Notes under the pieces: model-generated
What the model was told of the DNA's origin: nothing
Database searches by the model: none
The model's input: the letters and a program-made list of their open reading frames with translations, nothing else
In this document: piece after piece, positions 36,230-42,383 of the stretch
Position numbering within the stretch: position 1 is the first letter of the stretch
How the letters are laid out: the number at the start of each line of letters is the position of its first letter
Translations under genes and position numbers: made by a program
Assembly: GCA_902614835.1 (NCBI GenBank)
Contig: CACMMU010000002.1
Span: 48,456 to 112,455 of the forward strand
Length of the DNA stretch: 64,000 nt
Direction of reading: 5' to 3'
From: an uncultured Pelagibacteraceae bacterium
GTDB taxonomy: Bacteria > Pseudomonadota > Alphaproteobacteria > Pelagibacterales > Pelagibacteraceae

Positions 36230-37516
36230 ATGAAATTATCCGATCTCCTCAAATATGATGAGGACTTAAAGTTAGAGAAAAAAACAGTAATAATTTTGAG
36301 ATGGATAGCCTTAATAGGGCAACTAATAACAATATACGTAGTACATTTTTTTGTAAAATTTGATCTTCCATTAATTTTCTGTTCATTAACAATTTTTTTT
36401 GGAGGAGTTACAAACATTTTTGTACAATTTGGAATTAATAAAAATCAACTAAACAATACAGAGTCAACGATACTATTATTTTATGATGTTATACAATTAG
36501 CAGTATTACTTTATTTAACCGGAGGTGTAACAAATCCCTTTATTGTTTTTCTTATCGTGCCAGCTATAATATCTTCAACATTATTAAATTTATCTAGTAC
36601 TTTTTTCTTGTCATTTATTACATCAATAGCTTTGTTATTGCTTACCTTTAATTTTTTACCTTTACCAAGTGATGGAAATTTACATTTTCATGTACCTGAT
36701 TTCTATATTTTATCAATTCCAATATCTCTTAATATTGTATTGATTTTTTTAAGTTATTTTGGCTTTCGTTTTGGATACGAAGCAAGAAAAAGGGGTAATG
36801 CACTAAGTAGGTTAGAACTTATTTTAGCAAAAGAACAAGAGCTAGAGTCGATTGGCCATCAGGCAGCTGCAGCAGCGCATTCATTAGGCACCCCATTATC
36901 GACAATAACTGTAATTGCGAAAGAACTAAAAAAAGAAAATGTTAAAAGCAAGGAATTTAATGATGATATTGATACTTTATTAGAACAAGCAAGAAAATGT
37001 GGAGTAATATTAAAAAAAATCTCTCAAAATAAAATAGTAGAAGATGATTATATGATTAATATATCATTACAAGATTTGCTTAATGAGATATCAACTTCAT
37101 TTGAAGAAATTTCAGAAAAGAAAATAAATTTAAATTTGGCCAAGACAAGTAAAAAAATTCCTATTAAAAGATCCCCGGAAATTACTTATGGAATTCGAAA
37201 TTTTGTAGGTAACGCAGTTAAATTTTCTAAAAAAAATATTAATATCGATTTATATAGTGAAGATGGCAAAACTAGAATTGAAATTTCAGATGATGGTCCT
37301 GGATTTCCAGACGATATTTCTAAAATTATTGGCGAACCTTATATCGCTTCAAAAGTAAAAAAATATAAATCTAAATCAGGCCTAGGTTTAGGAACTTTCA
37401 TAGGAAAAACATTGTTAGAAAGAAAGAAAGCAGAAATTGAATTTTCTAAATCTGAACTTGGTGGAGCTTTAGTAGAAATAACTTGGAAAAACTCAGATTT
37501 AATAGCAAAACAATAA
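36230..37516 (+). CDS. regB: Redox-sensing histidine kinase RegB/PrrB
   Basis: Polytopic N-terminus with GGVTNPFIVFLIVPAIIS, H-box AAAAAHSLGTPLSTI, ARKCGVILKKIS, HATPase. Confidence 0.92.
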   Translation: MKLSDLLKYDEDLKLEKKTVIILRWIALIGQLITIYVVHFFVKFDLPLIFCSLTIFFGGVTNIFVQFGINKNQLNNTESTILLFYDVIQLAVLLYLTGGVTNPFIVFLIVPAIISSTLLNLSSTFFLSFITSIALLLLTFNFLPLPSDGNLHFHVPDFYILSIPISLNIVLIFLSYFGFRFGYEARKRGNALSRLELILAKEQELESIGHQAAAAAHSLGTPLSTITVIAKELKKENVKSKEFNDDIDTLLEQARKCGVILKKISQNKIVEDDYMINISLQDLLNEISTSFEEISEKKINLNLAKTSKKIPIKRSPEITYGIRNFVGNAVKFSKKNINIDLYSEDGKTRIEISDDGPGFPDDISKIIGEPYIASKVKKYKSKSGLGLGTFIGKTLLERKKAEIEFSKSELGGALVEITWKNSDLIAKQ

Positions 37517-38569
37517 TTATATTGGTTCTTGTTGAGTCAAACAATGTATCGTTCCAAAGCCCCATACCAAAATTGAACAATCTATTTGTATTATTCTTCT
37601 ATTTTTAAAATGTTTTTTAAATATTTTTAAGATAATTTTGTCTTTAGGGTCATTAAAAGACGGAACTAGAACAATTTTATTAGCAATGTAAAAATTAAGG
37701 TAGCTTGCAGGCAATCTAATGCCATCGATAAATTTTGGATTTGGCATAGGTATTTTTATAATTTTGAATTTTTCATTATTTTCTTTTTTAAATTTTTTGA
37801 TAATCTTTAAATTTTCGTTAAGATTTTTAAAATTTTTATCCTTTTTGTTATTTTCTACTGCGATGAATATTTTATTTTTATCAATAAATCTTGCAATATC
37901 ATCAATATGACCATGGGTATCATCCCCACATATTCCTTTATTCAACCAAATTACTTTCCTCACACCAAAAAATTTATTGAATATTTGACCATAATCATTC
38001 TTATTAAATCCTTTGTTTCTTTGTTGGACACTGCTTAATAAACATTGTGCAGTTGTCAAAAGAAGACCCTTGCCATTAACATCAATCGAACCACCTTCAA
38101 GAACAATCTTTTTTTTTTTAAATTTTGGCCTTACCATCTTAATTTTTTTTAATTTATTTATGCTTAGATAGGTTGTGTTGTCATTCTTAAAATTTTTATA
38201 TTTTGCCCAGGCATTGAACTCCCAGTTAGATAGAACGTTTCTTTTTTTTCTATCTTTTATAAATATTGGCAAAAAATCTCTTGTCCACGCCCTATCTGTT
38301 TTGCAAACTATCAGTCTAGTATTTTTTATTCTTGCTCCTAAAATTTCCAGAAATAATTTGACTCTTTTTTGATCTGATTTATCTTTGATTAAAATGTTAA
38401 CTAATTGAACCTTTGATAGCTCAGCAATTATTTTACTAAAAATCCAAGGTATTTTGCTAAATTTTCCTGGCCAATCTTCTTTGTTATGGGGCCAAGCTAT
38501 CCAAGTTGATTTTTGAGGCTCCCATTCTGCAGGCATCCTATAAATGCCATCTCTATACATGCTAGGCAT
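37517..38569 (-). CDS. aguA: Agmatine deiminase (PPAD family)
   Basis: MPAEWEPQKSTWIAWPHNKEDWPG; GDDTHGHIDDIARF; GFGTIHCLTQQEP. Confidence 0.93.
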   Translation of the reverse strand: MPSMYRDGIYRMPAEWEPQKSTWIAWPHNKEDWPGKFSKIPWIFSKIIAELSKVQLVNILIKDKSDQKRVKLFLEILGARIKNTRLIVCKTDRAWTRDFLPIFIKDRKKRNVLSNWEFNAWAKYKNFKNDNTTYLSINKLKKIKMVRPKFKKKKIVLEGGSIDVNGKGLLLTTAQCLLSSVQQRNKGFNKNDYGQIFNKFFGVRKVIWLNKGICGDDTHGHIDDIARFIDKNKIFIAVENNKKDKNFKNLNENLKIIKKFKKENNEKFKIIKIPMPNPKFIDGIRLPASYLNFYIANKIVLVPSFNDPKDKIILKIFKKHFKNRRIIQIDCSILVWGFGTIHCLTQQEPI

Positions 38570-39437
38570 CTTTTGGGTTATTTAATATGCCCTTGTAAAA
38601 ATCAATTCTTCTGTCTCTAAAAAAAGGCCAATGTCTTCTTACATTTTCAACTTTCTTAAAATCAATATCACAAACTAGAGTTTTCTCTCCTTGTTTTGCG
38701 TTAGCAATAATATTTCCACTTGGATCAAAAACAATTGTATTACCCCAAAATTCCAATTTTTTTGAGCCTCGTTTTTCTATACCTACTCTATTGACAGCTG
38801 CAACATATACTCCGTTTGCGATAGCATGGGATCTTTGTATAGATATCCATGAATTAAGTTGGGTTTTACCGAACTTTCTTTTTTCTTTGGGATGCCAACC
38901 AATTGCCGTTGGATAAAAAAGTATTTCCGCACCTTGCAAGGAAGTAAGTCTAGCAGCTTCTGGAAACCATTGATCCCAACAAATTAAAGTTCCAAGTTTA
39001 CCATAACTTGTTTTAAAAGATTTAAATCCAAGATCACCAGGTGTAAAATAAAATTTTTCATAATATTGTGGATCATCAGGTATGTGCATTTTTCTATACT
39101 TTCCAAGTATTTTTCCCTTCTCATTAATTACTACGCAGCTATTATGGTATATACCTGAAGTTTTTTTCTCAAAAATTGGTGCAATAATTATAATTTTAAG
39201 ATCTTTAGCTAACGACGAAAGTATATCCGTTGTTCTACCAGGTATTTTTTCAGCTAAATTAAAATTAGAATGTTTTTCTTCCTGGCAAAAATAATTTGAT
39301 AAAAATAATTCTGGTAGGCAAATAACCTTAGCTTTCTTTTTGCTTGCCTCTTTTATTTTTTTAATAGCAACGCTCATATTTTTTTGAGTATCAGACGACA
39401 TTTTCATCTGTATTAGAGCTATTTTTATTTTTGTCAT
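38562..39437 (-). CDS. aguB: N-carbamoylputrescine amidase
   Basis: Nitrilase family: CLPELFLSNYFCQ, KYRKMHIPDDPQYYEKFYFTPGD, GTLICWDQWFPEAARL. Confidence 0.94.
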   Translation of the reverse strand: MTKIKIALIQMKMSSDTQKNMSVAIKKIKEASKKKAKVICLPELFLSNYFCQEEKHSNFNLAEKIPGRTTDILSSLAKDLKIIIIAPIFEKKTSGIYHNSCVVINEKGKILGKYRKMHIPDDPQYYEKFYFTPGDLGFKSFKTSYGKLGTLICWDQWFPEAARLTSLQGAEILFYPTAIGWHPKEKRKFGKTQLNSWISIQRSHAIANGVYVAAVNRVGIEKRGSKKLEFWGNTIVFDPSGNIIANAKQGEKTLVCDIDFKKVENVRRHWPFFRDRRIDFYKGILNNPKDA

Positions 39438-39441
39438 TTAA

Positions 39442-40485
39442 TTAAAATAGTTTTTGGAAATTTCTTCTTTCCCTATTTTTCCAATTTTCACGATGATAAG
39501 CATCGCTCCCGATTAATGGAAGTACACTTGTAGCTTCAGCAAAAACCATTTGTTCTTTAGAAGTATCCACTTTTCCCCATGAGCTCGCTTCTTTTAAAGT
39601 AGAACTACTACAAGCCCCATCTCTTGTATCTGCTACGGTTATTTGTATAGCATATTTGTGCATATCGACTTTTTTACCTAAAAGCTCAGCACATACCACC
39701 GTATCCTGAACAAAATTCTTTGGAACACCTCCACCAACCATCAACAAACCAGAGTCTTTTGATTTTAATTTAATTTCAGTGAGTTCCCTAAATTCTTTTA
39801 TAGAGTCAATTGTAATATGTTTAGAGGGGTTTTGCTCTTGGTGCATTACCAAGCCAAAACCAGCAGAGCTATCAGTAAAAGCCGGACAAAATATTGGAAC
39901 ATTATGATCGTAAGCTACTTCTATTAAAGAATTTTTCTTTTTTGCATTTTTTTTCAAAAATTTTCCCATTTCTTTTATAAACTCTCTTGAAGTATAGGCT
40001 TTTGGGACTAGCTTATTAGCTATTTCACATATAGTTTTATCACAAATTTGAAGCTGCTCTTCATCAATATAAGTATCATAAATTCTGTCTATATAATTAT
40101 CTCTTAAAACCTTATCATCTTGAAATTGATCACCTCGGTAATGTTTAAAACCTAAGGCTTCAAAAAAATCCATATCTACTATGGAAGCTCCAGTAGCCAC
40201 AATAGCATCAACCATGTTGTATTTAACTAAATCAGAATAAAGTTGCATGCATCCCCCAGCAGATGTTGAGCCAGCAATTGTTAAAAATATAGAACAATTT
40301 TTATCCTTTATCATTTCATTGTAAATTTCAGCTGCTTTTGCTGTGTCCCTTGATGTGAAGGACATCTTTTTCATAGACTCAATAATTTTTCTAGCATCAA
40401 ATGATGTTATATCAATATGCTCTATTTCTGATTTTAATAATGATTTTTTATTATGTCCTAGGGAAGGACCATTTTTTTTATTCAT
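39442..40485 (-). CDS. Deoxyhypusine synthase-family protein (possible homospermidine/polyamine aminobutyltransferase)
   Basis: GSTSAGG, PAFTDSSAGFGLV, GGGVPKNF, and EASSWGKV matching the catalytic-lysine region of deoxyhypusine synthase. Confidence 0.9.
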   Translation of the reverse strand: MNKKNGPSLGHNKKSLLKSEIEHIDITSFDARKIIESMKKMSFTSRDTAKAAEIYNEMIKDKNCSIFLTIAGSTSAGGCMQLYSDLVKYNMVDAIVATGASIVDMDFFEALGFKHYRGDQFQDDKVLRDNYIDRIYDTYIDEEQLQICDKTICEIANKLVPKAYTSREFIKEMGKFLKKNAKKKNSLIEVAYDHNVPIFCPAFTDSSAGFGLVMHQEQNPSKHITIDSIKEFRELTEIKLKSKDSGLLMVGGGVPKNFVQDTVVCAELLGKKVDMHKYAIQITVADTRDGACSSSTLKEASSWGKVDTSKEQMVFAEATSVLPLIGSDAYHRENWKNRERRNFQKLF

Positions 40486-41663
40486 TAAGCAACTAAGTAA
40501 TCGACATTTTCTTTACGATCGTACATCGAAAGAATTGGTTTGTCATCTACTTGGTAGATTGTATCTGAATAAAAACCATTAAATTTTGTTCTAAAAGTTG
40601 TACCGTAAGCGCCCAGTTGTCCAAGCTCAATATAATCTCCCTCTTTAATATTATTGGGTAATAAAAAAGGCCCTTTCATATAGTCTAGGCTATCGCATGT
40701 TGGACCGTAGAAATTAAAAGCTGTAATTTTTTTTGAAACCACTCTTCCATTCGGAATCATCCTAGAGGGCAATATAAAATTTGGAACCCCAGCATCAAAT
40801 AAAGACCCGTAAGTTCCATCATTTATATATAGCTTTTGTTTTTTCTTTAATATTATTTTAACAATAGTTGAACCCGCTTCTGCCACAAGAGCTCTACCTG
40901 GTTCACAGAATATTTCTGGCATTTTTTCAAGTTTTAATTTTTTTAATGAATTTTTAATTTCTTGCATGTAATTTTCTAAAGGTTCTGGAATTAAATCTGG
41001 ATAAACAGATGGAAAGCCTCCCCCTATGTTTATTACATCGGGAACAATTTTAGTTTTTTTTATTATATTTCCAATTTCTTCAATACCGTTTGAAAAAGAT
41101 ATTTTATGCATACATTGTGAACCAACATGGAAACTTAAACCAACTTTTTTTCCGTGTTCTTTACATAAACGTAATAATCCTAATGCTTCACTAGGCAATG
41201 CCCCAAATTTTCTTGATAAATCTATTTCCGCATGTTCGTTTGAAACAGCCACTCTTACATATAGGTTTAAATCTTTAGCATTATTTGTGGCTTCTAAAAT
41301 CTTTTGTAATTCATCTTTACTATCTAGAGCAAAATCTTTTACGCTATATTGTGAATATGCTTCTCTTATACTTTCTTTACTTTTAACTGTATGCATGAAG
41401 TAAATTTTAACTTTATTGTTAATTTTTCTAATAAGCTTTATTTCATTAATTGAAGCCACATCAAAATTTTCTATACCATTATTTATAATAGTTTTTATTA
41501 TCTTCTCATGTGGATTTGTTTTTACAGCGTAAAGAACTTTTCCAGGAAAATTATTTTTAAAAAAATCTACTGATTTTTTGATCGAATTAGGTCTGACGCA
41601 GTAGACCGGATCTTCTGGTTTAAGAGTATTTATAAGCTCATTAACCGTGTCAAATTTTCGCAT
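40485..41663 (-). CDS. speC: Ornithine/lysine decarboxylase (PLP group IV)
   Basis: VLYAVKTNPHEKII (PLP lysine), SFHVGSQC, NIGGGFPS, EPGRALVAEAG, YGPTCDSLD. Confidence 0.92.
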   Translation of the reverse strand: MRKFDTVNELINTLKPEDPVYCVRPNSIKKSVDFFKNNFPGKVLYAVKTNPHEKIIKTIINNGIENFDVASINEIKLIRKINNKVKIYFMHTVKSKESIREAYSQYSVKDFALDSKDELQKILEATNNAKDLNLYVRVAVSNEHAEIDLSRKFGALPSEALGLLRLCKEHGKKVGLSFHVGSQCMHKISFSNGIEEIGNIIKKTKIVPDVINIGGGFPSVYPDLIPEPLENYMQEIKNSLKKLKLEKMPEIFCEPGRALVAEAGSTIVKIILKKKQKLYINDGTYGSLFDAGVPNFILPSRMIPNGRVVSKKITAFNFYGPTCDSLDYMKGPFLLPNNIKEGDYIELGQLGAYGTTFRTKFNGFYSDTIYQVDDKPILSMYDRKENVDYLVA

Positions 41664-41801
41664 CTATTATGTGTCCCCCATATTATTACACAGCAAGCTT
41701 CACAAAAATTCATTAAAAGAAGCTCTATAAATTTCGTATATAAGGTTTTTTTACTTTATGTAAAGCTAATAATGACTTGAAATTTATAAACAGATGCATA
41801 C

Positions 41802-42383
41802 ATGTATCTTATGCCAAGATTTGACAAATCACCCTCAGGTTTAAAGATCTCTGACTTTGAAGACAAATCTCTTCTCATAGTCGATGACGATGATCCTTTT
41901 AGAGATCGATTATCCAGGGCTCTGGAGAAGAAGGGTTTTCAGCCAAAAGGCGCAAAAAGCGTTGAAATTGCTCAACAATTACTCAAAACCTTTAGCCCAA
42001 AATTTGCAGTTGTTGACCTAAGACTTGAAGGAGGGAATGGTCTAGACATCGTTAAAGAGATTAAAAATTTAAAAAAAGATAGCAGAATTATCATGTTGAC
42101 GGGGTATGGAAATCTACCGACAGCAGTGGCTGCCATAAAGGCAGGAGCATTAGATTATATGGCCAAACCAGTCGATGCAGACGACGTAGAAGCTGCTCTA
42201 CTAGCCTCGCCTGATTCGAAGGCTAAACCCCCAGAAAACCCGATGTCCGCGGATAGGGTAAAGTGGGAGCATATAAACAGAGTATTTGAGCTATGTAATA
42301 GAAATGTATCTGAGACAGCCAGACGTTTAAAAATGCACAGAAGAACCCTTCAAAGGATCCTCTCCAAGCGGTCTCCCCGTTAG
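41802..42383 (+). CDS. regA: Response regulator RegA/PrrA/ActR (alternative start 41811)
   Basis: LLIVDDDDPFRDRLSRALEKKGF; Fis-type HTH NRNVSETARRLKMHRRTLQRILSKRSPR. Confidence 0.96.
   Translation: MYLMPRFDKSPSGLKISDFEDKSLLIVDDDDPFRDRLSRALEKKGFQPKGAKSVEIAQQLLKTFSPKFAVVDLRLEGGNGLDIVKEIKNLKKDSRIIMLTGYGNLPTAVAAIKAGALDYMAKPVDADDVEAALLASPDSKAKPPENPMSADRVKWEHINRVFELCNRNVSETARRLKMHRRTLQRILSKRSPR

Follow-up and report, generated by a model that had tools for sequence, protein, structure and literature searches.

The subject of this study is a compact operon of four minus-strand genes at positions 37517–41663 of a 64,000-nucleotide stretch (the window) of contig CACMMU010000002.1, which belongs to a metagenome-assembled genome (MAG) of a SAR11 bacterium of the family Pelagibacteraceae (38 contigs totalling 858 kb, with a completeness of 79%). 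SAR11 bacteria are among the most abundant in the ocean and their polyamine metabolism has been studied both as a sink and as a source of nitrogen. The four open reading frames (ORFs) listed for this region are intact and their products match the Pfam domains Orn_Arg_deC_N, DS, CN_hydrolase and PAD_porph, with E-values ranging from 2.5e-39 to 1.3e-105 (Table 1). The dense packing noted in the original prediction is confirmed, with a single base shared between the ORFs of the decarboxylase and the deoxyhypusine synthase (DHS)-like protein (TAATG), a gap of four bases between the latter and aguB and an overlap of eight bases between aguB and aguA, which indicates that the genes would be transcribed as a single unit. 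The order of the decarboxylase and DHS-like genes is kept in every SAR11 locus examined and their adjacency is thus not a matter of chance. The closest named relatives are single-cell genomes of Pelagibacteraceae, where the identity of the DHS-like protein reaches 93%. With moderate confidence, we assign to this operon the synthesis of homospermidine from arginine, which would proceed via agmatine and caldomycin.

Table 1. Genes of the operon and its upstream region, with positions in the window.
Feature	Position	Strand	Basis
Decarboxylase of alanine-racemase fold dependent on pyridoxal phosphate, most likely arginine decarboxylase, 392 aa	40485-41663	-	PF02784/PF00278, motif DGTYGSLFDAGVPNF
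DHS-like enzyme, most likely caldomycin synthase CdmS, 347 aa	39442-40485	-	NF002699, seven CdmS positions
AguB-like carbamoyl-amine amidohydrolase, 291 aa	38562-39437	-	PF00795 E=9.4e-65, Glu-Lys-Cys motifs
AguA-like guanidine deiminase, 350 aa	37517-38569	-	PF04371 E=1.3e-105, catalytic Cys and His motifs
Divergent intergenic region, 138 bases, presumed promoter region	41664-41801	.	Between operon and RegA/ActR gene; ORF coordinates

Signature of a probable caldomycin synthase in the DHS-like protein

The assignment relies foremost on the second gene of the operon. Its product scores 577.4 bits on NF002699, the curated equivalog model of the caldomycin synthase CdmS (cut-off 500), whereas the scores on the models of SpeY-type homospermidine synthases (NF001980, 185.6 bits) and of deoxyhypusine synthases (TIGR00321, 237.6 bits) stay below the respective cut-offs of 450 and 304.25. 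The protein retains the Lys, Trp and Glu that act in catalysis in DHS, and the positions of Asp 243 and Asp 316 of the human enzyme are occupied by Phe 210 and Cys 292. The active site of CdmS from Thermus contains S67, E136, D143, F204, L286, E293 and K299 (PMC10981699). Mapped by these published residue numbers rather than by direct alignment to the Thermus sequence, all seven positions are found at a constant offset of +6 (S73, E142, D149, F210, C292, E299 and K305), with six of the residues being identical and the replacement of L286 by C292 as the only difference. The mapped residues are invariant in 133 SAR11 and 37 other rows of the family, with a single row carrying a Leu at the L286/C292 position. 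The combination of the Ser equivalent to S67 and the Phe equivalent to F204 is present in each of these 170 rows, which include some loci fetched twice, and it is absent in 11 other bacterial DHS-like proteins (Ala at S67; Leu, Met or Asn at F204) and in two true DHS (Asn and Asp). The case for agmatine being the substrate is built mainly on this signature of S73 and F210, from which we infer that the protein is most likely a CdmS that would catalyse the NAD-dependent homocoupling of agmatine, the activity that, together with inactivity towards putrescine and spermidine, defines this enzyme. The replacement of D243 and D316 was dropped as a marker of CdmS on its own, since SpeY-like proteins also lack both acids, and a single-sequence AlphaFold prediction (pLDDT 30) was not used.

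The signature extends beyond SAR11. A homologue encoded on a Nostocales plasmid, which is 57% identical to the protein of the window, contains all seven CdmS residues at an offset of −4. On a conjugative plasmid of Trichormus variabilis, the gene of a CdmS-type homologue (L196:4998-6041), whose annotation is confined to deoxyhypusine synthase, adjoins rocD and genes of feo iron transport. A divergent bacterial DHS-like family (loci L137–L140) has an Asn at the position of F204 and a Tyr at that of L286.

Arginine as probable starting compound

The first gene had originally been labelled speC. SpeC is an enzyme of the aspartate-aminotransferase fold, the decarboxylase of the operon has the alanine-racemase fold according to Pfam (PF02784/PF00278), and PF01276, which describes decarboxylases of the former fold, has no match in this genome and none over cut-off in 13 SAR11 genomes, and the name is thus wrong. 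The best relatives of the protein in the PDB are lysine/ornithine decarboxylases. When aligned to one of them (5gjm), the position of D332, the acid characteristic of ornithine decarboxylase (ODC), is a Pro, and the segment DGTYGSLFDAGVPNF stands where the ODC motif with D332 would be; an Asp located four residues before this position is invariant across the clade. The SAR11 decarboxylases share the motif DGTYG(S/T)LFD and their genes occupy the orthologous position in all SAR11 loci, and the protein is 64% identical to its counterpart in a SAR11 locus from freshwater whose genes are arranged in the same way. Members of this clade from Pelagibacter and Fonsibacter, published as 'ODC/ADC', decarboxylate arginine and display no detectable activity towards ornithine or lysine in the assays collected in Table 2 of PMC9992855. 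By clade and by locus, the decarboxylase of the operon would most likely be an arginine decarboxylase as well, and the initial statement that the window contains no such enzyme is probably mistaken. The only other PF02784 protein of the genome is LysA-like and, together with the lack of PF01276 matches over cut-off, this leaves a conversion of ornithine to putrescine without a candidate here.

An entry from arginine is also supported by co-occurrence outside SAR11. Among 36 complete alphaproteobacterial genomes, a homologue of AguA is found in 16 of the 16 that contain a DHS of the NF002699 type and in 7 of the 20 that do not (Fisher's exact test, p = 5e-5, a value that overstates the evidence because the genomes are related and no correction for kinship was applied). 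The same decarboxylase clade is present in all 16 genomes with such a DHS, and the type of decarboxylase was checked in 17 of the remaining 20. On a megaplasmid of Sphingomonas parapaucimobilis, the same decarboxylase–DHS pair (L197:3560-6029) has neither AguA/AguB nor an agmatinase annotated within 5 kb.

Exchangeable genes for the presumed removal of guanidine groups

The two remaining genes encode proteins that are related to, though set apart from, the enzymes converting agmatine to putrescine. The third scores 300.5 bits on TIGR03381 (N-carbamoylputrescine amidase, cut-off 410.25) and the fourth 227 bits on TIGR03380 (agmatine deiminase, cut-off 381.8), and they are thus referred to as AguB-like and AguA-like only. 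Their catalytic motifs are in place, with Glu, Lys and Cys located in AguB and GDDTHGH and HCLTQQ in AguA. The three other AguA proteins scanned from genomes with this DHS (L187, L253 and L282) equally fall below the TIGR03380 cut-off, which is passed by a canonical AguA in genome G345 (557.5 bits).

In 90 SAR11 loci, a few of which share a genome, the slot following the DHS-like gene is filled by either AguB-AguA (33 loci) or a gene of the arginase family (57 loci) and never by both, with one further locus, which ends at a contig edge, containing neither. On a tree of the decarboxylase, DHS and RegA, this exchange amounts to at least nine changes, seven of which are forced by well-supported branches. 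AguB is 85–88% identical to the protein of the window in L064:7049-8966 and L061:7049-7831 and AguA of L064 is 74% identical, with the flanking PolA of both loci reaching only 75–76%. The closer relationship of AguB (and AguA at L064) compared to the flanking genes suggests that the cassette may have been exchanged horizontally within SAR11.

The arginase-family proteins linked to DHS, here termed DHS-linked SpeB, form a subfamily apart from canonical agmatinases (450–664 vs 50–86 bits). The SAR11 genomes G031 and G032 each contain two arginase-family genes, one for a canonical agmatinase and one for a member of the subfamily located directly after DHS (L148, L149, L158 and L159), and the presence of both distinct proteins suggests that the DHS-linked SpeB has a substrate of its own. 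In a genome outside the class, DHS is likewise directly followed by a protein of this subfamily. Distinct subfamilies of hydrolase and deiminase that are both tied to DHS would be expected if caldomycin rather than agmatine were the substrate, without this being proof.

Potential for spermidine synthesis elsewhere in the genome

The original prediction had correctly noted that speE, speD and CASDH are absent from the window. PF01564 and PF02675 match on another contig, where a SpeD-SpeE fusion of 348 residues is encoded (contig C10, 20350-21369, minus strand; genome G000, locus L186), whereas PF03435, examined with regard to other routes to homospermidine or spermidine, has no match over cut-off in the genome, a result obtained without a separate search for CASDC/NspC. 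Of the 16 genomes of the family tested, 15 contain PF02675, with G034 being the one without it. Since in E. coli the type of fusion known from Pelagibacter yields spermidine as well as spermine and thermospermine (PMC11107197), its counterpart can by analogy make spermidine. Complete spermidine synthesis elsewhere, combined with a lack of DHS-like activity, had originally been named as speaking against the proposed module, and the fusion corresponds to the first half of this combination. A spermidine route via N1-aminopropylagmatine was considered and rejected, since the Pelagibacter fusion is not among the enzymes listed as making this compound in the passages of PMC11107197 considered, and putrescine is thus probably still needed. 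As the fusion presumably requires putrescine, AguA and AguB may act on agmatine too.

Discussion

The described properties suggest a sequence of three steps. The decarboxylase would convert arginine to agmatine, as judged from its orthology to assayed enzymes, the CdmS-type protein would join two agmatine molecules to caldomycin, and AguA would turn the guanidines of this intermediate into ureas, which AguB would hydrolyse to the free amines of homospermidine. In such a pathway, AguA and AguB would take over the task that is probably fulfilled by the DHS-linked ureohydrolase of the arginase family in other SAR11 bacteria and that TtSpeBap fulfils in Thermus, and they probably also convert free agmatine to putrescine for the SpeD-SpeE fusion. 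Homospermidine, already considered a potential product in the original prediction, is the likely outcome. The chances are about even for the more specific proposal that SAR11 bacteria would make homospermidine without putrescine, with AguA acting as a caldomycin deiminase and AguB as a carbamoyl-homospermidine amidohydrolase. The two enzymes would thereby take the place of the ureohydrolase of Thermus, and their genes would be swapped as a cassette with DHS-linked SpeB at a single locus.

Several parts of this scheme are already published. A cluster with the same order of the same four families has been described for Ca. Fonsibacter ubiquis LSUCC0530 (ODC/ADC – DHS/SpeY – NCPAH – AIH; Fig. 2 of PMC9992855), whose decarboxylase was assayed as arginine-specific and whose DHS is termed a putrescine-based SpeY, whereas the sequence of the DHS-like protein in the window points to the coupling of agmatine. 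The same gene order is found in a freshwater locus of Pelagibacterales (L092, close to L002 and L187), to whose proteins the marine ones are 53–78% identical. In Ca. Pelagibacter ubique, the corresponding locus begins with the same two genes, which are followed by an arginase/agmatinase (PMC9992855; loci like L109), thus placing the DHS-linked SpeB where the window has AguB-AguA. The conversion of caldomycin to homospermidine is known from Thermus thermophilus (PMC10981699), where CdmS (TTHA1570), a member of the same curated family with collinear active-site residues, is combined with the single ureohydrolase TtSpeBap, in contrast to the deiminase and amidohydrolase, the decarboxylase in the same operon and the Cys at L286 in the window. 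Caldomycin itself is unreactive towards o-phthalaldehyde. In the SpeA-SpeB-SpeY pathway of Anabaena (Burnat et al., 2018, cited in PMC10385936), a DHS homologue likewise contributes to the formation of homospermidine from arginine via agmatine, though by a coupling described as one of putrescine, unlike that of agmatine proposed here. It is thus only the order of steps, with agmatine coupling preceding deimination, that would be new. The literature found, whose scope did not extend to subscription journals and preprints, contains neither a proposal linking a SAR11 DHS to caldomycin nor a report of AguA or AguB acting on it.

This latter absence weighs against the proposed scheme, as do other points. 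The functions of the operon enzymes are all assigned from sequence, the DHS of Fonsibacter and Pelagibacter has been published as SpeY, a homospermidine synthase using putrescine (PMC9992855), and only low levels of homospermidine were described for HTCC7211 (PMC8437039). The missing DHS acids set CdmS apart from true DHS only, and its distinction from SpeY-like proteins depends in the present comparison on S67 and F204. Finally, the co-occurrence of AguA and DHS does not discriminate between the two orders of steps, since a route starting from putrescine would also require the removal of the guanidine.

Such a route, where agmatine obtained from arginine is converted by AguA and AguB to putrescine before SpeY joins two putrescines to homospermidine, is possible but appears the less probable order. 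It is how the four-gene cluster of Fonsibacter was drawn in PMC9992855 (Fig. 2), a similar pathway was proposed for Zymomonas (PMC8594446), and putrescine is presumably wanted anyway in light of the spermidine obtained with the Pelagibacter fusion in E. coli (PMC11107197). However, the DHS-like protein scores 577 bits on the CdmS model compared to 186 on that of SpeY, SpeY-like sequences lack the combination of F210 and the guanidine-binding S73, and the function of the SAR11 SpeY is stated in the passages of PMC9992855 considered without a reported assay. An entry on two branches, with putrescine supplied by an ornithine/lysine decarboxylase as well as from agmatine as originally envisaged, draws on the relationship of the decarboxylase to solved lysine/ornithine decarboxylases and is very unlikely, since relatives at the same locus are published as arginine-specific (PMC9992855, Table 2) and the D332 position is a Pro, with the invariant Asp of the clade found four residues earlier, thus leaving arginine to agmatine as a single entry. 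Least probable of all is the 'unrecognised protein modification' that the conserved catalytic Lys, Trp and Glu might suggest, where the protein would act on EF-P or another target as true DHS does on eIF5A, given its placement in a family of small-molecule synthases, active-site residues that point the same way, operon partners that are all small-molecule enzymes and the lack of an EF-P match in the 79% complete MAG (searched with the E. coli sequence).

If the coupling of agmatine precedes deimination, SAR11 bacteria would obtain homospermidine without putrescine and their published polyamine maps would have to be redrawn. Another substrate would then apply to the products of many DHS-like genes that now carry the annotation deoxyhypusine synthase or SpeY, and many a bacterial 'SpeY' adjoining an arginine decarboxylase would be a CdmS.

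Genomic surroundings of the operon

No Rfam family, and hence no riboswitch or attenuator of this kind, was detected at threshold anywhere in the window, and scans of the upstream region for promoters and terminators did not clearly exceed the expectation from shuffled sequence. A phage origin of the operon was rejected, as no relatives were found among the phage records and viral contigs searched. The operon is enclosed by regA (ActR/PrrA; 41802-42383), which is oriented divergently, and the convergent regB (ActS/PrrB; 36230-37516), whose end directly abuts that of aguA. This placement between genes of the redox response is retained in most SAR11 loci examined.
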